A stretch of DNA of 25,101 nt from a virus: positions 1 to 25,101 of the IMG/VR virus record IMGVR_UViG_3300008448_000582. One strand, 5' to 3'. Under the pieces are notes generated by a model, which saw only the letters and a list, made by a program, of their open reading frames with translations, searched no databases and was not told the DNA's origin. The position numbers and the translations under genes were made by a program. Shown piece by piece: positions 3,633 through 24,557 of this stretch; positions within the stretch are counted from its first letter, which is position 1, and each line of letters begins with the position of its first letter.

Positions 3633-4149
3633 TTATATACATCCAACGGCAATCATAGGTGATAATGTTATACTAGGTGATAACAATTACATTGGTGCTT
3701 ATTGCATTATAGGAGACCCTGCAGAACATAAAGAGTTTTGGAAATATGAACGTAATGTAAATAATAAACATAATGGAATGAGAGAGGTAATTAGTGGTAG
3801 AGTTATTATTGGAAGTAATAATATAATCACAGGATTAGTTACAATAGATGCAGGAACAGAACAAGCAACTTATATAGGTGATAATTGTTTTATTATGAAA
3901 CACGCACATATAGGACACGATTGCACAATAAATAATAATGTTACAATTAGTTGCGGTGCTAAAATTGGGGGGCATTCTGTAATAGGTGAAAAATCTAACA
4001 TAGGATTGAATGCAGTATTACATCAATTTAGCAATATTCACGTAGGTTGTATGATAGGAGCAAGTGCATTTTTTAAAGGAGAATCAGAACCATATACAAA
4101 ATATGCAGGTGTACCTGCTAAATCATTAGGAAAAAATATAATAAAATGA
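3625..4149 (+). CDS. LpxA-like left-handed beta-helix acyltransferase
   Basis: This encodes 174 residues built from hexapeptide repeats (PTAIIGDNVILGDN, YIGAYCIIGD, TYIGDNCFIM, and others), which form a left-handed beta-helix. Resemblance to UDP-GlcNAc O-acyltransferase (LpxA) goes beyond the repeats. HAHIGHDC at 93-100 corresponds to LpxA's AHIAHDC with the catalytic His, VTIDAGT at 72-78 to VTIHRGT, and VLHQFSNI at 131-138 to AVHQFCII. LpxA's C-terminal helical domain (it is about 260 residues) is missing, leaving only a short tail. It probably acylates a sugar or sugar nucleotide. Overlaps of 4 bases with the next gene tie it to two glycosyltransferases. Confidence 0.8.
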   Translation: MANYIHPTAIIGDNVILGDNNYIGAYCIIGDPAEHKEFWKYERNVNNKHNGMREVISGRVIIGSNNIITGLVTIDAGTEQATYIGDNCFIMKHAHIGHDCTINNNVTISCGAKIGGHSVIGEKSNIGLNAVLHQFSNIHVGCMIGASAFFKGESEPYTKYAGVPAKSLGKNIIK

Positions 4150-4733
4150 ACGCAGTAATATTTTTAAACTATCAAAACAATAGTGTTAAAACATTAGGCA
4201 TTAACTTATCTAATGCAGGAACAGATATTGAACAAGTTGTAATAGTAAAAGAAAAAGGTATAGCTAATGCCATTAATGTAGGTTTAAATAAAATAGACTT
4301 TAGTCACATTCAATATGTTACTTTATTATCTAATGATATATTAGAACCTGATAATTGGTTAAGGGTAAGGAATGAATTTATGCAAGATAAAATGATAGGG
4401 ATTTGTGCTATCCCTTTAGTAAATGGCTTTGATGATACTACAGATATAATAGGAAACTTTACAATAAGTAAAGAGGTTATAAAAAATGTAGGTGCTTTCA
4501 ATACTGCACTTGACCCATACGGAGCAATTGACCTAGACTATTGTACACGAGTTAGAGCAGCAGGATTATATACTAAATACATTCGTACAGGTTATGCTAC
4601 TCACATAGAACAGAATGGAATAGATGCTTATGGTTATAACAAGAATGAATTAGTTAAAAGCACTTGGGAATTACATACTAGCAATGTAGCAAATTACTCA
4701 AATGGCAGCAAAACATATTACCTTCCATTATGA
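4146..4733 (+). CDS. GT2-type (GT-A fold) glycosyltransferase
   Basis: This encodes 195 residues, short for the family. Visible GT2 landmarks are GIANAINVGL at 38-47, SNDI at 62-65 where the DxD metal motif normally sits (only the last Asp kept), and a C-terminal block NVGAFNTALDPYG followed by DLDYCTR at 129-135, with His153 after it. This block resembles the acceptor and base region of rhamnosyl- and related transferases. It probably transfers a sugar onto a lipid- or protein-linked glycan. The degenerate DxD may mean altered metal use or reduced activity. It overlaps both neighbours by 4 bases (ATGA). Confidence 0.7.
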   Translation: MNAVIFLNYQNNSVKTLGINLSNAGTDIEQVVIVKEKGIANAINVGLNKIDFSHIQYVTLLSNDILEPDNWLRVRNEFMQDKMIGICAIPLVNGFDDTTDIIGNFTISKEVIKNVGAFNTALDPYGAIDLDYCTRVRAAGLYTKYIRTGYATHIEQNGIDAYGYNKNELVKSTWELHTSNVANYSNGSKTYYLPL

Positions 4734-5734
4734 GAATACTAGCAATAACAAGTAAGTTTAGCGGTGTAGGTTATCATAGGATTATGATGCCTTTAGTTAA
4801 TATGCAGAAAGATTATTGTATGATTACAGATACAATAAATGAAGCAGTATTTGATAACAACTATGACATAGTAATATTCAATAGATTCCTAGCATATACA
4901 GAAATAAGTATGCTTGAGGCTATGCGAAAAAGATACAACTTTAAATTAGTTGTAGATAATGATGACTATTGGATATTACCACCTTCACATATTTTATCAG
5001 ATAGATATAGAGATAGTGATGTTACACAAAGGATAACAGATTTTATTAGAATTGCAGACCTTTGCACCTGTACACACGAAAGGTTAGCAGAAGAAATAGC
5101 AGTATATAATCCTAATGTAGAAATATTTCCTAATGCTTTACCTTATGGCAAAGAGCAGTTTCAAGATAATAAGATAGAATCAGATATGGTTAGATTGTTT
5201 TGGTCAGGTTCAGGTACACACGTTCCTGATTTAGATATATTACGGCAACCAATGAAGAAAATAAACTTCCCTGTTAAAACAGTTATAGCAGGATATAATC
5301 TAGGTGAGAAACATCTTTGGGATAGAATGATAGGAGTATTTACAAACGGCTTAAAGTTAAACCCTACCATATATGACTATGCAGAAATAACAAAATATAT
5401 GGGTGCTTATGCTGACTCTGATATAAGTTTAATTCCTTTAGTAGATAATAAGTTTGGTGCAATGAAATCTAATTTAAAGGTATTAGAAACTGCTGCAAAG
5501 AAAAACCCTGCCATAGTTAGCAATGTGCATCCTTATAAAAATATGCCTGTCTGCTATGTAAATAATCAAACAGATTGGTATAAATGGATTAAGCTATTAA
5601 CTTTTGATGAAGCAGCTAGAATAGAATACGGACAAAAACTATTTGAATTCTGTGAAAGGGAGTTTAACTTTGAGGCTATAAATAACAAGCGTTTTGCTAT
5701 TTATAATAAATTGATAGGCAATGCCAATATATAA
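4730..5734 (+). CDS. GT-B type (GT4-like) glycosyltransferase
   Basis: This encodes 334 residues. The N-terminus MRILAITSKFSGVGYHR has the glycine-rich turn of a GT-B Rossmann domain. YDIVIFNRF and LVVDNDDYW follow, a block I associate with phage and bacterial glycosyltransferases. LFWSGSGTHVPDLDIL opens the second domain, and DISLIPLVDNKFGAMKSNLKVLE is the nucleotide-sugar binding loop (usual form E-G...K-x-L/E). Together with the LpxA-like and GT2 genes it forms a three-gene glycan cassette. Targets may be the host surface polysaccharide or virion proteins; the sequence cannot decide. Confidence 0.75.
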   Translation: MRILAITSKFSGVGYHRIMMPLVNMQKDYCMITDTINEAVFDNNYDIVIFNRFLAYTEISMLEAMRKRYNFKLVVDNDDYWILPPSHILSDRYRDSDVTQRITDFIRIADLCTCTHERLAEEIAVYNPNVEIFPNALPYGKEQFQDNKIESDMVRLFWSGSGTHVPDLDILRQPMKKINFPVKTVIAGYNLGEKHLWDRMIGVFTNGLKLNPTIYDYAEITKYMGAYADSDISLIPLVDNKFGAMKSNLKVLETAAKKNPAIVSNVHPYKNMPVCYVNNQTDWYKWIKLLTFDEAARIEYGQKLFEFCEREFNFEAINNKRFAIYNKLIGNANI

Positions 5735-6143
5735 ATGCTCCAACGGAAAATACAGAATAGGTACAGGAAGTTGTATTTATGATACACAAGAAAAGGCTGC
5801 AGAAGTATGGGCAGCTATTATAGCTAGTGGTAAATATGAGGAGACTTATAATGACTATCCTGAATCAGCTAGTAACAATGCAAAGAGAGCATTGAAATGG
5901 GCAGAAGAAAACGGATGGGGTGAATGTGGAACTGCAGTAGGCAAAGCAAGGGCAAACCAATTAGCAAACAAAGAAAATATATCTAGGGATACAATTGCTA
6001 GGATGGCATCATTTAAAAGGCAACAACAAAATAAAGATGTTCCATATTCAGAAGGTTGTGGAGGTTTAATGTGGGATGCGTGGGGTGGCACTTCAGGTGT
6101 TGAATGGGCAATTAATAAACTAAAACAAATAGATAAGAAATAA
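5721..6143 (+). CDS. Phage structural accessory-domain protein, function unknown
   Basis: This encodes 140 residues in two blocks. Residues 1-40 (MPIYKCSNGKYRIGTGSCIY) form a short Cys-containing module. Residues 46-138 contain SASNNAKRALKWAEENGWG, DTIARMASFKRQQQNKDVPY and GGLMWDAWGGTSGVEWAINK. I know this second block as an accessory module appended to portal, protease or head-morphogenesis proteins of Bacteroidota phages; here it is a separate gene. It overlaps the glycosyltransferase by 14 bases and its stop overlaps the HNH gene start. It is possibly a minor head component. Its biochemical function is not established. Confidence 0.65.
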   Translation: MPIYKCSNGKYRIGTGSCIYDTQEKAAEVWAAIIASGKYEETYNDYPESASNNAKRALKWAEENGWGECGTAVGKARANQLANKENISRDTIARMASFKRQQQNKDVPYSEGCGGLMWDAWGGTSGVEWAINKLKQIDKK

Positions 6144-6397
6144 AAAATCACACTAAAGTATATCTGAACCATTTTGGTTACACAGGTGAGGATTTTATAC
6201 CTTGTGAAACTTGCGGAGCAAGGGCAGTTGATATTCATCACATAGAAGCTAGGGGAATGGGGGGAACAAAGAAAGGGGATACAATAGATAATCTTATGGC
6301 ACTATGCAGAGAGCATCATTTACAATACGGAGACAAGAAACAATATATGGAATTTTTAAAAGAGATACATAAACAAAAATTAGATGGCAAAGATTAA
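6140..6397 (+). CDS. HNH endonuclease, probable ATA start
   Basis: This 85-residue protein has a complete HNH/zinc layout: CETC at 22-25, DIHHIEARGMGG with His33-His34, DNLMALC with Asn51 and Cys56, and EHH at 58-60. HNH proteins beside terminase genes can assist genome-end cleavage, as in HK97, and this one lies about 0.5 kb upstream of the terminases. No ATG, GTG or TTG lies between the upstream in-frame TAA (6134-6136) and the core. The best start is the ATA at 6140, overlapping the previous stop, which would give MKNHTKVYL. I recall Bacteroidota-phage HNH proteins starting MKNHTK, which fits. CTG at 6164 is the alternative. Confidence 0.75.
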   Translation: MKNHTKVYLNHFGYTGEDFIPCETCGARAVDIHHIEARGMGGTKKGDTIDNLMALCREHHLQYGDKKQYMEFLKEIHKQKLDGKD

Positions 6398-6506
6398 AAG
6401 TGATTCTTCAAAATTATCATTCGGTAAAAGGAAAAGGGGTCAAGCAAAGAAATCATTTAACAAACATTCACCTAGACCAAAACAATATAAAGGACAAGGA
6501 AGATGA
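6384..6506 (+). CDS. 40-residue, very basic phage protein
   Basis: This encodes a 40-residue protein beginning MAKIKSDSSKLSFGKRKRGQ and ending KQYKGQGR; about one third of the residues are Lys or Arg. It has no hydrophobic core and is probably disordered and nucleic-acid binding. It overlaps the HNH stop by 14 bases and the next gene by 4 (ATGA), so it sits inside the packaging operon. I recall similar short KKxxNKH...GQGR proteins in Bacteroidota phages without a function. Confidence comes from the overlaps and the strong composition bias. Confidence 0.6.
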   Translation: MAKIKSDSSKLSFGKRKRGQAKKSFNKHSPRPKQYKGQGR

Positions 6507-6856
6507 TAATACTACCTGCACAAATAGAAGGCTTAACTTCTAGGAAGGATAAAACAATAAAGGTAACATTTGGAACACAAGAACTATCACCAAATGATGC
6601 AGCACAGGTATTCCAACTTAATCAAAGGTTCTGTTACATAGCCATCAAAGAAGAACCATTTCAACAGGATGAACTAGATAACATAGATAGCATTAAGACA
6701 GACCTTGAAACAAACAAGACCCCATCACAAAGATTAAGGGGTATATTGTATGTTAGCTATCAACAAGATAACGAAGGATTCAAAGATTTTATGACATACT
6801 ATGTTAGCAAGATGGATAAACTTTGTGAGCATTTTAAGTCTAAATTAGATAAATAA
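6503..6856 (+). CDS. Conserved phage protein upstream of terminase, unknown function
   Basis: This encodes 117 residues. The N-terminal 50 look beta-rich (IKVTFGTQELSPNDAAQVFQ, then FCYIAIKEEPF). The C-terminal half is helical (TPSQRLRGILYVSYQQ, then KDFMTYYVSKMDKLCEHF). There is no membrane segment or known catalytic motif. The position, between a small basic protein and the small terminase, is typical of conserved Bacteroidota-phage genes of unknown role, perhaps packaging-related. Confidence 0.6.
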   Translation: MIILPAQIEGLTSRKDKTIKVTFGTQELSPNDAAQVFQLNQRFCYIAIKEEPFQQDELDNIDSIKTDLETNKTPSQRLRGILYVSYQQDNEGFKDFMTYYVSKMDKLCEHFKSKLDK

Positions 6857-6872
6857 ACAGAATAAAAACAGA

Positions 6873-7232
6873 ATGAGCAAAGAACATTTAATACCATTTG
6901 TAAAGGGTCAGTCAGGGAATCCTAATGGCAGACCTAAAAAGTATGTTAGCTTACTTATTGAACAAGGGTATAAGTTATCTGAAGTAAACGATACAATACA
7001 AAATCTAATGGCAATGAATCAAGAACAACTTAAATCTATACAAGATGATGTATTAGCAACTGCATTAGAAAGAACCATTTGCAAGGCTATATTAAACTCA
7101 ATGAGCAAGGGCAGCCTGTATTCAATTGAAACTTTATTGACTAGGGTATATGGTAAGCCAAAGGAACAGATGGATATTAAATCAGATAATAAAATAGAAG
7201 TTATCTTTGTAGATGGTAAAACTATTTTATAA
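6873..7232 (+). CDS. Terminase small subunit-like (DUF5681-type) protein
   Basis: This encodes 119 residues. The N-terminus FVKGQSGNPNGRPKK is the basic motif of DUF5681 proteins, which commonly occupy the small-terminase slot. The middle (IQNLMAMNQEQLKSIQDD, then TALERTICKAILNSMSKG) is helical and suited to oligomerisation, and GKPKEQMDIKSDN near the C-terminus is common among small terminases. It would recognise the packaging site and load the large subunit. The ATG follows an A-rich leader, and the stop overlaps the TerL start by one base. Confidence 0.75.
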   Translation: MSKEHLIPFVKGQSGNPNGRPKKYVSLLIEQGYKLSEVNDTIQNLMAMNQEQLKSIQDDVLATALERTICKAILNSMSKGSLYSIETLLTRVYGKPKEQMDIKSDNKIEVIFVDGKTIL

Positions 7233-8383
7233 TGCAAATATTCTTACCTAACCCACACGCAAATCAACAGAAGATATTAGAATGCGACAAGCGTTTTAGA
7301 GTGGTGATGTGCGGCAGAAGATTTGGTAAGTCAGAACTGTCACAGATACTTTCAGTCACATATGCGGTTAAAGGCTATTCAGTGGCTTATATTACCCCTA
7401 CTTATGGGTTGGCAAAGGTTTTCTTCAGTAAGCTAACAGAGTCCCTAGAATTGCCTAAAAACAAGTCAGACCTTAAAATAGATTTCCCTAATGGCGGACA
7501 GATTGAATTCTTCACAGGGGAACGATTAGATAATTTAAGGGGTAGAAAATTTCATTTAGTTATCATAGATGAAGCATCATTTATCCCTGAACTTGAATCA
7601 GGATGGCAGAATAGTATTAGACCAACCCTGACAGATTACAAAGGGAAGGCAATATTCCTTTCTACACCTAGAGGTAAGAATTATTTCTATAGCCTATTTA
7701 TGAAGGCAGGTGAAAATGATTGGGCATCGTTTAAATTTACTAGCTATGATAATCCATACATAGACCCACAGGAAATAGATGAAGCAAGAATGCAACTGCC
7801 AAATGTAGTATTTGAGCAGGAATATATGGCAAACCCTAGCGAGAATAGTGCTAACCCATTTGGGAACAAATTCATTCAGGATTGTATAAAACCTATTAGC
7901 AACCAACAAATAGTTGCATTTGGTATTGACCTTGCAAAGTCAGTTGACCATACAGTAATCATAGGATTAGATAATGGGGGTAACGTGGCTTATTTTGACA
8001 GGTATCAAATGGATTGGCATAACACCAAAGAGAATATTAAAAGGCTGCCTAGATGTCCTATATTAGTGGATAGCACAGGTGTAGGTGACCCTATCCTAGA
8101 AGATTTACAAAGGGAAGGGATAGCCATTGAAGGTTTAAAGTTTACGAGTTCAAGTAAGCAGCAGCTAATGGAAGGGTTGGCAACTGCAATACAACAGGGT
8201 AGAATTGGATTCCCTGAAGGGGCAATAACAAATGAACTGCAAGTGTTTGAATATCAGTTCACTGCAAATGGGGTTAAGTATTCTGCACCTAGTGGATTTC
8301 ACGATGACTGCGTAATGGCATTGGCTTTAGCGTGGAATAACTTCAGCATAAAAAGAGGTAATGGCAGGTATACTTTTATGTAA
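7232..8383 (+). CDS. terL: Terminase large subunit
   Basis: This encodes 383 residues, compact but with both catalytic domains. The ATPase shows Walker A CGRRFGKS at 27-34, an Arg-rich region around 102-106, Walker B LVIIDEAS at 109-116 and the coupling motif STPRGKNYF from 144. The RNase H-like nuclease shows Asp233 (GIDLAKS), Asp280 (LVDSTGVGDP) and the pair Asp358-Asp359 (HDDCVMALALA). It pumps DNA into the prohead and cuts it to length. Translation appears coupled to the small subunit by an overlapping start. Confidence 0.95.
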   Translation: MQIFLPNPHANQQKILECDKRFRVVMCGRRFGKSELSQILSVTYAVKGYSVAYITPTYGLAKVFFSKLTESLELPKNKSDLKIDFPNGGQIEFFTGERLDNLRGRKFHLVIIDEASFIPELESGWQNSIRPTLTDYKGKAIFLSTPRGKNYFYSLFMKAGENDWASFKFTSYDNPYIDPQEIDEARMQLPNVVFEQEYMANPSENSANPFGNKFIQDCIKPISNQQIVAFGIDLAKSVDHTVIIGLDNGGNVAYFDRYQMDWHNTKENIKRLPRCPILVDSTGVGDPILEDLQREGIAIEGLKFTSSSKQQLMEGLATAIQQGRIGFPEGAITNELQVFEYQFTANGVKYSAPSGFHDDCVMALALAWNNFSIKRGNGRYTFM

Positions 8384-16351: not shown

Positions 16352-17620
16352 ATGAGTATGGAATTACCATTATATATGTTAGAAATTTCTGATGATTTAG
16401 CGGATGATGCTGAAGTGCAATTTGTCGCTTTAGTAGATAGACCTGCCATTCAAAAGAATTGGAATGCCTTTAAAAATGAACAAAAGTTTCAAATCATTAG
16501 TGAAGATAAGCACATTATTAGCGGTTGTGCTATGTTGGCTGACACTCCTATTTTTAGAAGTGATGTTAATTTTGGTGATTATTATGTGGCATTTTCTAAA
16601 GATACTATTGTTAAGATTGTACAGAAATACTTTAAAAAAGGTTATCAAAACAATGTGAACTTAATGCACGACCCTAAACAAATTGAAACAGGGGTAACGA
16701 TGTTTGAAAGTTTTATTAGTGATAAGTCTAGGGGGATTGAACCAATGAAGGGATTTGAAGATGCACCTGATGGCAGTTGGTTTGTATCTATGTTAGTTGA
16801 AAATGATGCAGTATGGCAGCAAGTTAAGGAAGGTAAGATTAATGGATTCTCTATTGAGGGCATATTTAACTACACTCCAAAAATACCTAAAGAACAACAG
16901 GTAATGAGTGAGATATATAAAATATTAGAAGAAGTAGAATTAGGTGGACCGGGAAGCGGAAGGAGACCTGAAGGCGGTGGTGACAATGAACCAACAGGTT
17001 CAGTAAAAACTGTATCTGTTGAAGATAAAGAAGTAAAAGATTTAGTTTCTAAAGCACAGGAAGCAGCACCTGAAGTTGATAAATTAGGAAAAGATTTAGC
17101 AGAAAAATATGGTGCAGTTGTTACTCCTATTAATATGAAATCAGCAGATTCTATTGTAAGAAAAACAAATACAGAAGAAGGTGGTAATTTAGGTAATATA
17201 AAAGATGCAGTTAGGAATACTATAATTACTGATGACCCAATTGCAATGCAAAATATTATTAAAGATTTAAGCAATGACCCTAGAGTAGCAGGTGGTAATG
17301 GCAGAATTAAAACTCAAACTCACGAATCTAATCCATTGGGATATAGTGGTAATTTGGTCAATATAAAGACCGCTAATGGCTTAACTGCAGAAATACAGGT
17401 AAATACACCTAAAATGATTTATGCCAAAGAAAAGCCTGAAAATGCCAAAATGATACTAGGCGAAGCGAAGTATAATCAAATTGCTAAACAGGTAGGAGTT
17501 GAAGGTGGTAAAGGACACGACTATTACGAAAAATATCGTGTATTGGTAGTCGGTAAAGATGATAAACAAAGAAAACAAATAGAGCAGGAATCTAAAAAAT
17601 ATTACAGTAAATTTTTGTAA
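16352..17620 (+). CDS. XkdF-like prohead protease fused to a RelA/SpoT-like domain
   Basis: This encodes 422 residues in two parts. Residues 1-175 are a XkdF-like capsid maturation protease, with GCAMLADTPIFR at 58-69, probable catalytic His106 (NLMHDPKQ) and Ser167 (NGFSIEG). A flexible linker GGPGSGRRPEGGG (198-210) follows. Residues 240-400 look like a (p)ppGpp-synthetase fold: MKSADSIVRK with Lys263 matching the R-I-K-S-x-x-S-I motif, IKDAVRNTII with Asp285, GYSGNL with Tyr331 and AEIQVNTPKM with Glu347. Asp285 and Glu347 match the metal and catalytic acids of Rel enzymes. The protease would mature the capsid; the C-terminal domain may transfer pyrophosphate to nucleotides or tRNA. Seen: the motifs. 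Inferred: activity. Confidence 0.75.
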   Translation: MSMELPLYMLEISDDLADDAEVQFVALVDRPAIQKNWNAFKNEQKFQIISEDKHIISGCAMLADTPIFRSDVNFGDYYVAFSKDTIVKIVQKYFKKGYQNNVNLMHDPKQIETGVTMFESFISDKSRGIEPMKGFEDAPDGSWFVSMLVENDAVWQQVKEGKINGFSIEGIFNYTPKIPKEQQVMSEIYKILEEVELGGPGSGRRPEGGGDNEPTGSVKTVSVEDKEVKDLVSKAQEAAPEVDKLGKDLAEKYGAVVTPINMKSADSIVRKTNTEEGGNLGNIKDAVRNTIITDDPIAMQNIIKDLSNDPRVAGGNGRIKTQTHESNPLGYSGNLVNIKTANGLTAEIQVNTPKMIYAKEKPENAKMILGEAKYNQIAKQVGVEGGKGHDYYEKYRVLVVGKDDKQRKQIEQESKKYYSKFL

Positions 17621-17649
17621 TAGTCAAATAATATTAGTAAATTGTGTAT

Positions 17650-17868
17650 ATGAGAAATGAGAATCTACTTACTGAAATTGCCAATGGAAAAGAGGTATTC
17701 TTTGAAAACAGTTTTGAAGAAATTGCTTTCAGAAATATCCCTGAAGGTGGTTATGAAGGTAAAGAAAAAGGTGCGACCCCATACAAAGTAGAAGGTGCAC
17801 CAAACAAATTGGTTGAAGCTATTTTAGAAGGGAAAATGATTAGTAAGGAAGAATACCAAAAATACTAA
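17650..17868 (+). CDS. 72-residue protein downstream of the protease fusion, possible immunity factor
   Basis: Translation probably starts at the ATG at 17650; a GTG at 17644 would add two residues. The protein is acidic: RNENLLTEIANGKEVFFENS, then an IPEGGYEGKEKGATPYK middle and a helical LVEAILEGKMISKEEYQKY tail. I do not recognise the family. It follows the RelA/SpoT-like domain by 29 bases on the same strand, a usual place for an immunity or antitoxin gene. Its last 29 bases overlap the 3' end of the oppositely oriented HD hydrolase gene. Confidence 0.55.
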   Translation: MRNENLLTEIANGKEVFFENSFEEIAFRNIPEGGYEGKEKGATPYKVEGAPNKLVEAILEGKMISKEEYQKY

Positions 17869-18364
17869 TTAACCTACCTTTTAAATAAAGCCTTTCTAAT
17901 TTATTAGATAAAGACTTATTAAATTTAGAGTATATAATCTTGAATTGTTTTGATTCAGATATATACTTTTTTAATTTGTGGTAGTTTCTGTTCCTGATAC
18001 ATTCCCTGACATTACATATCCTATCACATAGCTTTACTATTGAAGCTATTTCACTTTTAGATATTTCAATATAGTATGTATCTAATGGTGGCTTTTTAGT
18101 TAGTAGTTTAACATTAGTATAAACTTTATTGCTTATCTGTTTAAGTTTATTTTCATATAATGTGGTATCTTCTAATATGTCGTGCAATGCACATACAGAA
18201 AGGATTACATCCATTTTATTACTTTTAATATTGTTTTCATTACAAAACTTTTCTGCTTCAAACCATACATCTAATAAATGATATAGATAAGGTTTTATGC
18301 CATACTGCTGATACTTATGGTATTCAGCAGCAAGTGCAAGTGAGTTATATTTTATTTTATTCAT
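17840..18364 (-). CDS. SpoT-like HD-domain alarmone hydrolase
   Basis: This encodes 174 residues from the ATG at 18364 (the frame is open to 18442; an ATG at 18382 is possible). The HD motifs of (p)ppGpp hydrolases are all present: AAEYHKYQQYGIKPYLYH with His29, CALHDILEDT with His61-Asp62 and Glu65-Asp66, and VKLCDRICNVRE with Asp114 and Asn118. They match A-x-x-H...P-Y...H, HD-x-x-ED and K-x-x-DR-x-x-N-x-R of SpoT/MESH1 hydrolases, and the size fits a small alarmone hydrolase. It probably removes the 3' pyrophosphate from an alarmone. It is the last gene of a leftward cassette and converges on the synthetase-like gene. Confidence 0.8.
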   Translation of the reverse strand: MNKIKYNSLALAAEYHKYQQYGIKPYLYHLLDVWFEAEKFCNENNIKSNKMDVILSVCALHDILEDTTLYENKLKQISNKVYTNVKLLTKKPPLDTYYIEISKSEIASIVKLCDRICNVRECIRNRNYHKLKKYISESKQFKIIYSKFNKSLSNKLERLYLKGRLISIFGILPY

Positions 18365-18374
18365 ATTTAGTTTA

Positions 18375-18953
18375 TTAAGCATACCAACTAGAGTAAACTC
18401 CTTTTTCTTCTTTGCTTTCAATGAAATTGCAGAAACATCCATGCTTTGCTTTTATGTGGTAGCTAATTTCACCATTATAACTGACTGAAAGATTTATTCT
18501 TTTTAATATTGGTTCACCAACAAAAGAATCTTTAACAGGCTTAACATTAGCACACATATAACCTTCAGTACCTGAAACATAAGAACTAGCAATTTCTCTC
18601 AAAATTACTGACTTTTCTTTAACTTCTATGATTTGGTAGAAGTCAATGTTAGTTTGGTCATATCCCCAAGAATTGTAAATGATTGAACCTTCAACAAAAT
18701 TGTGATTCATATTCTTTTGTGCTTCCTTCTTTTTAGCCTTTCTTTCATTTTCAGCATTAATATTTCTTTCAACTCTTTCAATCCATTCAGAACAAAATTC
18801 AGCCATTCTTTCAGGACTTCTGAACCTGTAATTAAATAATGCTTTAGGGAATCTAGCTTTGCTTTTAGCTTTCATACATAGGGCAATATTTAATTCTTCT
18901 TTAACAGTTAGGACATAACCTAGACTTTCATACTTTTCAATTAAATTTTTCAT
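18375..18953 (-). CDS. Conserved mobile-element protein, unknown function
   Basis: This encodes 192 residues. The N-terminal half is helical and basic (KAKSKARFPKALFNYRFRSP, then SEWIERVERNINAENERKAK). The C-terminal half starts at EGSIIYNSWGYDQTNIDFYQ and is beta-rich. The motif SWGYDQTNIDFYQ recurs, as I remember, in hypothetical proteins of Bacteroidota phages and plasmids. No enzyme motif is seen. It is in the same leftward unit as the HD hydrolase, with 10 bases between them. DNA binding or anti-defence is possible but unproven. Confidence 0.65.
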   Translation of the reverse strand: MKNLIEKYESLGYVLTVKEELNIALCMKAKSKARFPKALFNYRFRSPERMAEFCSEWIERVERNINAENERKAKKKEAQKNMNHNFVEGSIIYNSWGYDQTNIDFYQIIEVKEKSVILREIASSYVSGTEGYMCANVKPVKDSFVGEPILKRINLSVSYNGEISYHIKAKHGCFCNFIESKEEKGVYSSWYA

Positions 18954-18972: not shown

Positions 18973-19248
18973 TTAGATAATTTGTTTATATAATTCAGAA
19001 CTTTTAATTTTCTCACCAATAAAGAACCATTTTAATTTTCTCATTAGAACCTGATTAAAATGAGTTTCATTTTCAAAAGCATTAGTATAGACTGCAACAC
19101 CCATATTTACTGCTCTATCAGTAATGTTTGCAAACTCTAAAAAAGTTCCATATTGATTTGGTTCTTTAGAATACTCTTTAAATAATTCTTGAAATAATTC
19201 GGCTTGATGACCATAATAACCTAGTTCAATTGAAATTGTCTTTTCCAT
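18973..19248 (-). CDS. Small protein of the leftward cassette, unknown function
   Basis: This encodes 91 residues starting MEKTISIELGYYGHQAELFQ. It is mixed alpha/beta and acidic in the first half, with a basic helix LMRKLKWFFIGEKIKS near the end. There is no membrane segment. The ATG follows an A/T-rich leader containing TGTTTATTTT on the plus strand. It is the second gene behind the leftward promoter. I do not recognise a family. Confidence 0.6.
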   Translation of the reverse strand: MEKTISIELGYYGHQAELFQELFKEYSKEPNQYGTFLEFANITDRAVNMGVAVYTNAFENETHFNQVLMRKLKWFFIGEKIKSSELYKQII

Positions 19249-19393: not shown

Positions 19394-19425
19394 TAAAAGT
19401 ACACAGGTTTTAAACACATTCCAAA
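19394..19425 (-). promoter_or_regulatory. Leftward Bacteroidota-type promoter
   Basis: Reading the minus strand, TTTGG (19425-19421) is followed after 19 bp by TACTTTTA (19401-19394), a one-mismatch form of TAnnTTTG. The region AAATGTTTGGAATGTGT matches 16 of 17 bases of the promoter at 8442-8458. It drives the four-gene cassette ending in the HD hydrolase. Confidence 0.65.
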
Positions 19426-19528: not shown

Positions 19529-20134
19529 ATGAATCCAAAAGAAGCATTACAACAAATAAGAGCCTTATTTGAAGATATGCCACAAGTAATTGAGCCACAA
19601 GCACCTGTTGCACCTGCAGAACCTGTAGTTACAAAGGTAGAAATGGCTGAATATTCTTTGGCTGATGGAACAAAGGTTATGATTTCTGCATTAGAAATCG
19701 GTGGTAAAGTAGAGATGGCTGATGGCACTCCTGCTCCACAAGGCGAACATCAATTAATGGATGGTACTTCTATCCAAGTAGATGAAACAGGAACAATCAT
19801 TGAAATTTCTTCCCCTAAAGAAGATATTGTAGAAGAAGAACCTGTTGCACCTGCTGCACCTGTTGCACCTGCACAAGATACTACTGCTATGGCAGAAGAA
19901 TTAAAGGCAGAGTTTGCAGAGCAAAAAAGTCAATTAGAAACAAAAATTGCTGAATTAGAGAGCAAAGTAAAACAAGGGTTTGCACAAGTAGCTGAATTAG
20001 TAGAAGCACTTTCAAACACTCCAACTGCTGAACCTACTCAAAAAGCAGCAAACGCTTTTCAATCATATGTAGCTACAAAAGATAGCAAGTATGAGAGATT
20101 AGAGAAATATAGAAACGCAATTTTAAACAAATAA
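19529..20134 (+). CDS. Capsid scaffolding protein
   Basis: This encodes 201 residues, acidic. An Ala/Pro/Val-rich segment (QAPVAPAEPVV) is followed by a beta-like block (YSLADGTKVMISALEIGG) with the repeat form MADGT/LMDGT. A second Pro/Ala-rich linker and a coiled coil at about 125-165 (EELKAEFAEQKSQLETKIAE) follow, then a helical basic C-terminus. This plan and its position directly before the major capsid gene are typical of scaffolds in these phages. It would be a substrate of the prohead protease, whose gene is separated from it by the leftward cassette. Confidence 0.8.
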   Translation: MNPKEALQQIRALFEDMPQVIEPQAPVAPAEPVVTKVEMAEYSLADGTKVMISALEIGGKVEMADGTPAPQGEHQLMDGTSIQVDETGTIIEISSPKEDIVEEEPVAPAAPVAPAQDTTAMAEELKAEFAEQKSQLETKIAELESKVKQGFAQVAELVEALSNTPTAEPTQKAANAFQSYVATKDSKYERLEKYRNAILNK

Positions 20135-20145
20135 ATTTATAAAAA

Positions 20146-21096
20146 ATGTCATTTTCAGTATCAACATTAAGCAACTATACTAAAGAAAACGAAGCACAGT
20201 TAGTGACTTCATCTGTATTAGGTGCAAAAACTGCTGCTCTTATCAAAAGTGCAGGAAACGTAATGGTTGGAGTTAAATCCGCAGAAACCATTAATATTAT
20301 GGATACAGATGCTTTCTTTCAAGCAGGTGGTACTTGCGGTTGGAACGCATCAGGTACAACTTCTTTTACACAAAGAACTGTAACAGTAGGTAAGATTAAA
20401 GTACAAGAGGCTTTATGTCCTAAAGCATTGGAAGCTAAATACTTACAAAAGGCTTTACCAACAGGTAGCCAATATGATTCAATTCCTTTTGAGCAAGATT
20501 ATTCTGATAGAAAAGCTAAAACAATTGCTTCTCAATTAGAGACTGCTTTATGGCAAGGTGATACTACTTCTGCTAATGGTAACTTGAATAAGTTTGATGG
20601 CTTCATCAAATTAATCGGTGCTGCTGCAGGTGTAGTTGATGCTAACGTATCAGGTTATATTTCAGGTGCTCCTTTGAGTTCTATTACTGCTGCAAACGTA
20701 GTTGCATTATTTGATGGTGTATATAGTGCAATTCCTGCTAAAGTAGTAGCTTCTGAAGATATGGTTATTGTTTGTGGTATGGATACATTCCGTACTTACA
20801 CAATTGCATTAAAGAACGCTAATATGTTCAATTATGCTTTTGATGGTAAAGCAGATAGCGAATTTGTACTTCCGGGAACTTCTATTAAAGTAGTAGCTTT
20901 ACAAGGATTAAACGGAACAAACGATGTTTATGCAATGCGTTTAAGCAACTTGTTCTTGGGTACAGATTTACTTAACGAAGAAGAAAAGTTTGAAATCTTC
21001 TTTGCAAAAGAGGCTGATGAAGTTCGTTTTGCAGCAGAATTCAAAATGGGTGTGAACGTAGCATTCCCTGATGAAATCGTTAAAGTAGCAATTTAA
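20146..21096 (+). CDS. Major capsid protein (HK97-like)
   Basis: This encodes 316 residues, cytosolic. Features include FEQDYSDRKAKTIASQLETALWQG, consistent with the long spine helix, then an A-domain region with VVASEDMVIVCGMDTFRTYT and a C-terminal beta block (LFLGTDLLNEEEKFEIFFAK). Position after the scaffold, before a strong terminator, and codon use unlike its neighbours (more C-ending codons, as in highly expressed genes) all support this. Confidence 0.85.
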   Translation: MSFSVSTLSNYTKENEAQLVTSSVLGAKTAALIKSAGNVMVGVKSAETINIMDTDAFFQAGGTCGWNASGTTSFTQRTVTVGKIKVQEALCPKALEAKYLQKALPTGSQYDSIPFEQDYSDRKAKTIASQLETALWQGDTTSANGNLNKFDGFIKLIGAAAGVVDANVSGYISGAPLSSITAANVVALFDGVYSAIPAKVVASEDMVIVCGMDTFRTYTIALKNANMFNYAFDGKADSEFVLPGTSIKVVALQGLNGTNDVYAMRLSNLFLGTDLLNEEEKFEIFFAKEADEVRFAAEFKMGVNVAFPDEIVKVAI

Positions 21097-22203: not shown

Positions 22204-22578
22204 ATGATACATTTTACTAAAGGCGAAACAAATACTATTGTGTTAACATTAACTGAAAAGCAGTTATTGACTAACCCAAACTATTTATTTGTATTTACTA
22301 ATAGAAGTAGCAATGAAGTAGTAAGTTTTGTTAAATTAAACGCAACAGATTTAAGTTCATATAAAGATAGGTTCAATGAATTTAGCATTGTAACTAATAC
22401 ATACTTTAATACTGCTTTAGAAGGGCAATACACATACGAGATATATGAACAAGCAAGTACTAGCAACACAAATCCTAGTGGCTTAAACAAGCTAGAAACA
22501 GGGATTATGTGGCTTTCAGGTACTACTATATCATATACAGAATATACAACAACAGACACTTATACAATTAGACAATGA
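22204..22578 (+). CDS. Small structural protein upstream of portal, unknown function
   Basis: This encodes 124 residues from the ATG at 22204 (MIHFTKGETNTIVLTLTEKQ); the frame is open further up but the extension is Phe/Ile-rich and unlike coding sequence. The protein is beta-rich with a C-terminal GIMWLSGTTISYTEYTTTDT. It overlaps the portal start by 4 bases. I recognise it as a Bacteroidota-phage protein that often accompanies structural genes (beta-sandwich, perhaps neck or decoration), but its role is not established. Confidence 0.6.
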   Translation: MIHFTKGETNTIVLTLTEKQLLTNPNYLFVFTNRSSNEVVSFVKLNATDLSSYKDRFNEFSIVTNTYFNTALEGQYTYEIYEQASTSNTNPSGLNKLETGIMWLSGTTISYTEYTTTDTYTIRQ

Positions 22579-24557
22579 TAGATTTAAGAGTATTAACATT
22601 CGCAGAAGCTAGGCAGCCTGAATTCAAAGAGAAGAAAGGTATTGATGGCGGCTACATAAAATATGGGGAAAATAACGATTACCCTGAATATATAGTTGAC
22701 TTATATAACAAGTCATCAAAGCATAGTGCCATTATTAAAAGTAAGGTTCACTACATTACAGGTAATGGTTGGAGTGGTGAGGCAGATGCTCAATCCTTTA
22801 TTGATAAAGCAAACAGAGTTGAATCTTTAGATGATTTAACTAGAAAAGTATCTTTAGACATTGAGATATTTGGCGGTGCTTATATGGAAGTTATTTGGGA
22901 TTTAGCAGGTAATTTAGCAGAGATATGGCATTGTGATTATGTTAAGATACGCACGAATAAAGATAATACGCAGTATTGGTATAAAGAAGATTGGAAAGAT
23001 AACAAAGTTAAGCCTGAAGTAGTTGCTGCATTTAATCCTAAACAACCAATAGGTAAGCAAATTCTATACATAAAAGAGTACAGACCAAACATAGGTATAT
23101 ATGGATTGCCTAGTTACTTTGCTGCACTTAACTATATTGAATCAGACATTGAGGTTTCTAAACATATTTTAGGTAATGCACAGACAGGCTTTTCTGCAAG
23201 TAAACTTATTACCTTACCAAATGGTGAGCCTAATGATGAAGAAAAAAGAAATGTAGATAATAGATTAAGAAAGACTTATAGCGGTGCGGATGGTAAGAAA
23301 TATATGATTGCTTTTGTCAATGACATATCTAGGAAACCTGTCGTAGATGATTTAGGTACAAGTGATTTAACAAAAGAGGATTTTGGTAAGATAGATGAAT
23401 TAATACAAACTAATATTTTTAGTGGGCATCAAGTTACTACTCCATCAATTATGGGTATTGCAGAAGCAGGTAAGTTAGGTAGTAGAACAGAGATGCGTGA
23501 TGGCTACGAGATATTTAAGAATACTTATGTAAACGCTAAACAGATGCACCTAGAAAGTGTATTTAATATGTTAGCTAAATTAAAAGGTGTTGTAAGTGAA
23601 ATAAAAATTATACCTACTGAACCATTAGGAATAGAATTTAGTGAGCAAACAATAGTTTCAGTTGCTCCTAAAGAGTGGGTATTAGAGAAGATAGGAATTG
23701 ATATGACTAAATATGCACCTGCACAAGATGCTGCAGCACCTGCACAAAGTTTATCTGTTAATGAGCATATCAAAGGTTTAAAAGGTCGGGAGTGGCAGAA
23801 TATGCAGCGTATCATTCGTGAATTTACTAAAGGTAAGATTAATAGAGAACAGGCTTCAGCAATGCTTAAAACAGGATATGCGTTAAGTGATGAAGAAGTA
23901 AATACTTGGCTAGGTTCAGAAGAATTAGATGCACAATTTGCAGCACAAGACTTTGGAGTATTTATGGAGTTTGGTGAGTCAAAAGAAAGTTATAACATTT
24001 GGAAATCTAAAAAGCGTTTTAGTGATGAAGCAGACTTTTATATGTTTGCTGATGTAAATCAATTAGAATCAGACATATTAGACCAAATAGCAAAACAAAA
24101 GGATATTACACCTGAAGTATTGGCAGAGGTTTTAGATGAAAGTGTTGAAACTATTAATACAGTTATAAAAGATTTAGAGGATAGAAAGATATTAAAGACT
24201 ACTGAAACTAAAATAGGCAAAGGAATTAATAGCAACATTATAATTTCAAGGGAATTAACACAACCATTGAGCAAGGCAGTAGGTGATACAAAGCCACAAA
24301 CAACTGAAATTTTAGTTCGTTATTCTTATGATTGGATTGCAGGATTTAATAATAGTGATATAACTAATAGTAGACCTTTTTGTAAGGCTTTATTAGGTGC
24401 AAATAAACTATATAGCAGAAGTGATATTGAAATGATGAGTGCAAGATTAGGATATTCAGTTTGGGATAGGAGAGGCGGATGGTGGAATGATAACGGAACT
24501 ATAAGTGAATCTTGCCGCCACGAGTGGAAAACAAATGTAGTAACAAGAAAAAAATAA
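22575..24557 (+). CDS. Portal protein with C-terminal accessory domains
   Basis: This encodes 660 residues. Residues 1-370 form the portal body: GGYIKYGENNDYPEYIVDLY, NKSSKHSAIIKSKVHYITGN, and VTTPSIMGIAEAGKLGSR around 300. After an Ala/Pro linker near 385, two unusual parts follow. A winged-helix-like segment at about 495-540 contains ITPEVLAEVLDESVETINTV. A Cys/His C-terminal module from about 580 contains FCKALLGANKLYSRSDI, a Trp/Gly-rich RRGGWWND and a SCRHEW end. I know the last module as an accessory domain of Bacteroidota-phage structural proteins. The portal forms the DNA entry ring; the extras may bind partners or be delivered. Confidence 0.8.
   Translation: MIDLRVLTFAEARQPEFKEKKGIDGGYIKYGENNDYPEYIVDLYNKSSKHSAIIKSKVHYITGNGWSGEADAQSFIDKANRVESLDDLTRKVSLDIEIFGGAYMEVIWDLAGNLAEIWHCDYVKIRTNKDNTQYWYKEDWKDNKVKPEVVAAFNPKQPIGKQILYIKEYRPNIGIYGLPSYFAALNYIESDIEVSKHILGNAQTGFSASKLITLPNGEPNDEEKRNVDNRLRKTYSGADGKKYMIAFVNDISRKPVVDDLGTSDLTKEDFGKIDELIQTNIFSGHQVTTPSIMGIAEAGKLGSRTEMRDGYEIFKNTYVNAKQMHLESVFNMLAKLKGVVSEIKIIPTEPLGIEFSEQTIVSVAPKEWVLEKIGIDMTKYAPAQDAAAPAQSLSVNEHIKGLKGREWQNMQRIIREFTKGKINREQASAMLKTGYALSDEEVNTWLGSEELDAQFAAQDFGVFMEFGESKESYNIWKSKKRFSDEADFYMFADVNQLESDILDQIAKQKDITPEVLAEVLDESVETINTVIKDLEDRKILKTTETKIGKGINSNIIISRELTQPLSKAVGDTKPQTTEILVRYSYDWIAGFNNSDITNSRPFCKALLGANKLYSRSDIEMMSARLGYSVWDRRGGWWNDNGTISESCRHEWKTNVVTRKK

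Follow-up and report, generated by a model that had tools for sequence, protein, structure and literature searches.

The closest described counterparts of the locus analysed here are the Apk2/IapK/Aph1 systems, in which a MuF protein of temperate phages or prophages carries a C-terminal (p)ppApp synthetase and is accompanied by a small Tis1-like blocker and by an adjoining HD-domain hydrolase, a three-part logic already published for Streptococcus pneumoniae, Bacteroides caccae, Mannheimia haemolytica and Pasteurella multocida (PMC12226406). Aph1 has been shown to hydrolyse pppApp, and the Aph1 hydrolases give broad but partial cross-protection, while the blockers protect mainly against their own toxin (PMC12226406); this difference provides a reason to carry both immunities. 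In the type VI secretion system (T6SS) of Pseudomonas aeruginosa, the toxin Tas1 (Apk1) is paired with Tis1, and the genomic small alarmone hydrolase (SAH) PaSAH helps to defend against Tas1-like effectors, without being the cognate immunity of Tas1. A dual immunity made of a blocker and of an enzyme undoing the toxin reaction is also known from the Bxa/Bsi/BAH system of a Bacteroides prophage (PMC11699363), and in the FaRel/ATfaRel/AT2faRel locus a (p)ppApp synthetase has a SAH and an antitoxin resembling Tis1 at its flanks (PMC11782079). Here, I report a locus of related design in the window, namely the entire 25,101 bases of the IMG/VR viral contig IMGVR_UViG_3300008448_000582, where an HD protein encoded at 17,840-18,364 on the minus strand is proposed to be the enzymatic immunity against a toxin fused to a head-maturation protease.

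The window locus resembles Apk2/IapK/Aph1 in its three components, a phage head protein ending in a (p)ppApp synthetase, a small blocker of the Tis1 kind and an adjoining HD hydrolase, yet it departs from that system in several respects. Unlike Apk2, whose carrier is a MuF domain, the window carrier is an XkdF/S78_2 protease (PF14550), and the absence of a MuF domain keeps the toxin out of the Apk2 class; unlike Aph1, which lies on the same strand after iapK, the window hydrolase is encoded on the other strand, in tail-to-tail orientation with the blocker gene. It is with Tas1, Tis1 and PaSAH that the toxin, the blocker fold and the hydrolase fold each match best, although Tas1 is a PAAR effector and the window toxin sits on a phage structural carrier. 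Bxa/Bsi/BAH differs by its ADP-ribosylation chemistry and MuF carrier (PMC11699363), and the FaRel locus by being a free-standing toxin-antitoxin, without fusion to a virion protein (PMC11782079). What appears to be new is the protease carrier, the toxin exchange taking place on it, the opposite-strand hydrolase with a candidate promoter, the recruitment of a hydrolase that does not belong to the Aph1 lineage, and the setting in phages where genes for lysogeny were not detected; a search for XkdF-carried toxins in the literature collection consulted found no paper.

The hydrolase gene is a real open reading frame (ORF) that encodes a single-domain protein of 174 amino acids with a RelA/SpoT-type HD signature; its longest ATG frame begins at 18,442, yet the relatives conserve the start at 18,364. 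An earlier reading of the sequence, the first-pass annotation, had proposed a SpoT-type single-domain HD hydrolase with H29, H61-D62, E65-D66, D114 and N118 in the motif spacing of (p)ppGpp hydrolases. All these residues are where it placed them, and they do not vary in an alignment of 20 relatives that reaches down to 36% identity. A profile of the HD relatives, searched against solved structures, finds PaSAH first (6yvc and 6z3n; E 3.6e-13 for 6yvc), followed by MESH1, TdSAH, CgRelH and the B. caccae (p)ppApp hydrolase 7smg. The AlphaFold model (predicted local distance difference test score, pLDDT, 90.3) shows an all-helical single-domain HD fold closest to SAH and MESH1, with PaSAH 6yvc ranking first (template modelling score, TM, 0.83; E 2.4e-6) and MESH1 next (TM 0.74), so that the structural comparison which had been suggested as a check came out in favour of the proposal. 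Purifying selection acts on the gene (median dN/dS, the ratio of nonsynonymous to synonymous substitution rates, 0.149 over 245 pairs), and 31 related viral loci were collected. Sequence profile and fold model thus confirm the predicted RelA/SpoT-type small alarmone hydrolase.

That the protein might instead be a phosphodiesterase or nucleotidase of another HD family is suggested by Pfam, which yields only the generic HD family PF01966, and this below the cut-off, so that Pfam alone would miss the hydrolase. Yet the unrelated HD families score far below PaSAH by fold, the best match other than RelA/SpoT homologues (2qgs, YpgQ) having an E-value of 1e-2 or worse, and both the Glu-Asp (ED) pair after the HD motif and the DxxxN motif are retained. 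Loss of the metal site, or better scores for unrelated HD families, had been named in advance as grounds for giving up the assignment, and the opposite was found on both counts; the fold ranking rules out a generic HD phosphodiesterase, and another HD family altogether is scarcely credible. The protein is very likely a metal-dependent alarmone 3'-pyrophosphohydrolase that supplies, by analogy with characterised systems, the enzymatic arm of a dual immunity beside the Tis1-like blocker. As for its substrate, the earlier reading as a (p)ppGpp hydrolase holds for the enzyme class, but (p)ppApp would be more likely than (p)ppGpp, because the neighbouring synthetase is of the Tas1 type and the closest solved relative of the hydrolase is PaSAH. 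Indeed, PaSAH prefers (p)ppApp over (p)ppGpp as a substrate by a factor of about 5-10 (PMC10434055) and gives protection against Tas1 (PMC8118318).

The toxin is encoded at 16,352-17,620 on the plus strand, within a fusion protein of 422 amino acids. Its N-terminal part (16,352-16,966) is the protease carrier domain, an XkdF/Peptidase_S78_2 match (PF14550, E 9.3e-15, residues 49-171) common to toxin-free relatives, which end at about 195-197 amino acids; the C-terminal toxin domain (17,015-17,620) includes a RelA/SpoT-like match (PF04607, E 7e-4, residues 262-361 of the fusion). The profile of the toxin domain matches Tas1 6ox6_A over 189 residues, the whole length of the domain, with an E-value of 2.7e-52, while the second-best synthetase reaches only 3e-4, and the motif residues K42, D64, R67, G109-Y110, E126 and Q128 (alignment A2) are invariant. 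What the first-pass annotation had called a synthetase-like domain is, as judged from sequence, a Tas1-type (p)ppApp synthetase attached C-terminally to a head-maturation protease of the XkdF/S78 type. A single scan of a genome collection with the toxin profile returned four loci, too few for a wide survey.

The hydrolase had been described as facing the synthetase-like domain. The linkage of the two stands, but they do not directly abut, for a small gene at 17,650-17,868 (plus strand; ATG at 17,650, in-frame GTG at 17,644), encoding a Tis1/IapK-like protein of 72 amino acids, lies between them and overlaps the 3' end of the hydrolase gene, tail to tail, by 29 bp. The 72-residue protein matches PF24154 (Tis1_ImmP) with an E-value of 0.0095 and 16.5 bits, against a curated cut-off of 27, the homologous protein of one relative (L225) reaching 30.8 bits; its sole profile match in the PDB is Tis1 6ox6_B (E 0.09). 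Foldseek ranks Tis1 first for its model (pLDDT 87.7), with probability 1.00, TM 0.70 and E 0.011, the next match having probability 0.30, and the gene directly follows the toxin in 20/20 relatives. Since Tis1 is the immunity protein of Tas1, the 72-residue protein is taken as a putative blocking immunity protein against the toxin, largely from its modelled fold. The presence of this blocker gene makes the HD enzyme a second immunity and not the sole one; the HD enzyme as the only immunity is ruled out by its discovery.

The first-pass annotation had also considered the pairing of hydrolase and synthetase unlikely to be accidental, and this is strongly supported by the distribution of the genes. 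Relatives were sampled via the protease domain and the capsid protein, without using the hydrolase, and gave 62 distinct intervals, each running from the protease to the scaffold gene: a Tas1-type toxin is present in 20, a Zeta toxin in 13, an unidentified extension in one and none in 28. Each of the 20 Tas1-type intervals also has the Tis1-like gene and the gene upstream of the hydrolase (18,375-18,953), and the hydrolase itself is present in 20/20 of them as against 0/42 of the others (Fisher 1.1e-16, with relatives that are not independent; 1.7e-9, with the same reservation, when the Tas1-type class is compared with the Zeta class alone). On the capsid-protein tree the hydrolase tracks the toxin in 8/8 supported independent contrasts (p 0.0078); three supported contrasts on the protease tree agree, too few for a test. 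Among 18 records of 30-36 kb, the hydrolase occurs in 8/8 with an Apk toxin and nowhere in the 10 without.

This pattern bears on the idea that the hydrolase is a general counter-defence or takeover enzyme, lowering host (p)ppGpp or removing the alarmones of toxic small alarmone synthetases (toxSAS) or T6SS effectors, its adjacency to the toxin being incidental. SAH-like HD proteins do occur in 251 phage records, mostly of Pseudomonas and Vibrio, with no such toxin nearby in those inspected, and the window hydrolase has a separate candidate promoter. Within this phage group, however, the hydrolase is never found without the toxin, near-full-length Zeta and toxin-free records included, and it is exchanged along with the toxin, which renders an incidental adjacency improbable; a standing gene of the phage group, independent of the toxin, is ruled out by the Zeta and toxin-free relatives.

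A case in point concerns the 13 Zeta intervals, where the protease bears a Zeta toxin (PF06414, E 1.6e-24 and 3e-28), the hydrolase is absent and its place is occupied by a minus-strand ORF of 56 amino acids, a candidate new antitoxin. In L055, for instance, the Zeta toxin spans 6001-7461 and the ORF 7451-7621, overlapping the 3' end of the toxin gene and not recognised by Pfam; further Zeta loci are L054, L056-L058, L060-L064, L066, L067, L080, L086 and L087. A third C-terminal extension of the protease, of about 100 amino acids, is seen in L102 (6001-6915), L104 and L133, in an interval without partner genes. Apk and Zeta toxins ride on protease domains of about 90% identity, and either toxin comes with partner genes of its own; a constant carrier with exchangeable C-terminal toxins, each accompanied by its own immunity, is what defines a polymorphic toxin system, and it is what these phages display. 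A scaffold-like gene downstream of the cassette (19,529-20,134, plus strand; C-terminal match to phrog_24921) is fused to the protease in the Nonlabens phage P12024L, whose homologous gp1 has 349 amino acids, and the gp1 family profile phrog_24921 covers both the window protease and the window scaffold-like gene, so that the toxin sits at the natural joint of protease and scaffold.

Cassettes that swap as units among related phages would also be expected of an addiction or toxin-antitoxin module, protecting its own locus or excluding competitor phages, in which the toxin acts undelivered in the producing cell; the toxin-antitoxin loci of FaRel likewise combine a SAH, an antitoxin resembling Tis1 and a synthetase (PMC11782079). 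Against such a module, the toxin is always fused to a protease of the structural module, in Apk and Zeta versions alike, which points to use in the capsid; a role confined to the producing cell is accordingly unlikely, though less so than a chance adjacency. A capsid-borne toxin with a dual immunity would work as follows. The phage would make the protease-toxin fusion, whose C-terminal domain, given its match to Tas1, would convert ATP or ADP to (p)ppApp and so drain the cell of ATP; the protease moiety would probably, if less certainly than the other steps, bring the toxin first into the procapsid and from there into the virion. The Tis1-like protein, as its fold and adjacency suggest, would block the acceptor site of the toxin, acceptor-site occlusion being known from characterised relatives (PMC11782079). 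The hydrolase, on the model of PaSAH and Aph1, would remove the 3'-pyrophosphate from (p)ppApp and return ATP or ADP.

The minus-strand gene run that includes the hydrolase appears to have a candidate promoter of its own. A block of the Bacteroidetes type, TTTG-N20-TANNTTT(G/A), lies at 19,394-19,425 on the minus strand and, as a consensus match only, would serve the run; it is conserved in Apk and Zeta cassettes (24/30 distinct upstream regions) and was not found at the equivalent place in toxin-free relatives. The strict Bacteroidetes pattern shows no excess across the whole window, the block being singled out solely by its conservation across cassettes, and scans for sigma-70 promoters and terminators gave no more than chance level. 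With such a block of its own (19,425-19,394), the hydrolase could be made before the head operon is switched on.

Several observations weigh against the interpretation of the locus as a capsid-borne (p)ppApp toxin with a dual immunity. At the sequence level the blocker bears only a weak likeness to Tis1 (E 0.0095 and 0.09), and packaging is deduced from the carrier alone. Adenosine-specific synthetases have been reported to bear a GxN signature (PMC12226406), which in the syn3 motif of the window toxin reads GNL and makes the choice of acceptor less certain; GxN is variable in other members of the toxin family, and L222 and L226, which are Aph1-linked, are also without it while adjoining a 7smg-type hydrolase or a relative of one. 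Moreover, L220, L221 and L224 have a MuF-carried toxin without an adjacent hydrolase, so that toxins of this kind do not always require one; in these loci a small gene follows the toxin relative, and an XkdF-like protease gene lies alongside.

The origin of the hydrolase can be approached from the loci closest to the published systems. In L222 (Riemerella), L225 and L226 three genes are read in series from one strand, first the toxin, then a small gene that is Tis1-like or of Tis1 size, then the hydrolase, and the L222 hydrolase is 7smg-like (E 3.8e-40). In the hydrolase tree the Aph1 branch, with B. caccae 7smg, has support of 100/98 and excludes the window hydrolase; a joint clade of the two is rejected by the approximately unbiased (AU) test (p 0.017, with 22 sequences only and long branches), by which the window protein as an Aph1 ortholog is ruled out. 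The window hydrolase may thus work like Aph1, to go by analogy, while coming from outside the Aph1 lineage. The pairing of a blocker with a product-destroying hydrolase would then have arisen with a non-Aph1 enzyme, which suggests that blocking alone is insufficient against this toxin chemistry.

Among near-full-length relatives (and the window where searched), in records that may be incomplete, no tyrosine integrase (0/19), no HTH_3 repressor (0/14) and no resolvase, rve transposase or ParA (each 0/13) was detected, which is suggestive only of possibly lytic phages, given that incompleteness. When MuF toxins were surveyed, no example with a known toxin domain came from a virulent phage (PMC5576092), and the models now in use for MuF toxins rest on lysogens outcompeting non-lysogens; if the phages are lytic, such models cannot apply. 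A speculative scenario, on balance unlikely, is that non-integrating (lytic) flavobacterial phages carry in their capsids, as a tail of the protease, a (p)ppApp synthetase or a Zeta toxin, which they inject with their DNA; the immunity, encoded on the incoming genome and expressed from its own promoter, would rescue only those cells where the genome survives, and a host destroying the DNA would still be killed. The capsid-maturation protease would be a second type of virion protein acting as a carrier of exchangeable toxins, in phages without detected lysogeny genes, and a family of 31 loci, with two toxin types and toxin-free controls, makes the points on carrier and dual immunity directly testable.

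Some other genes of the window deserve mention. Directly upstream of the hydrolase, the gene at 18,375-18,953 (minus strand, 192 amino acids) is conserved at the level of the cassette (20/20 Apk, 13/13 Zeta and 0/29 other intervals), without a confident family beyond phrog_37844, and the first ORF of the minus-strand run, at 18,973-19,248 (91 amino acids), is variable among relatives (6/20 Apk and 3/13 Zeta cassettes). The major capsid protein candidate, used as the independent sampling marker, lies at 20,146-21,096 on the plus strand (phrog_1623, phrog_11320). The portal protein (22,575-24,557, plus strand, 660 amino acids) has a weak C-terminal winged-helix match (MarR_2, E 0.0015, residues 493-543), unusual in a portal, and two glycosyltransferase-like genes (phrog_7162, E 6e-59; phrog_2456, E 5e-4) are found upstream of the terminase, at 4146-5734 on the plus strand.
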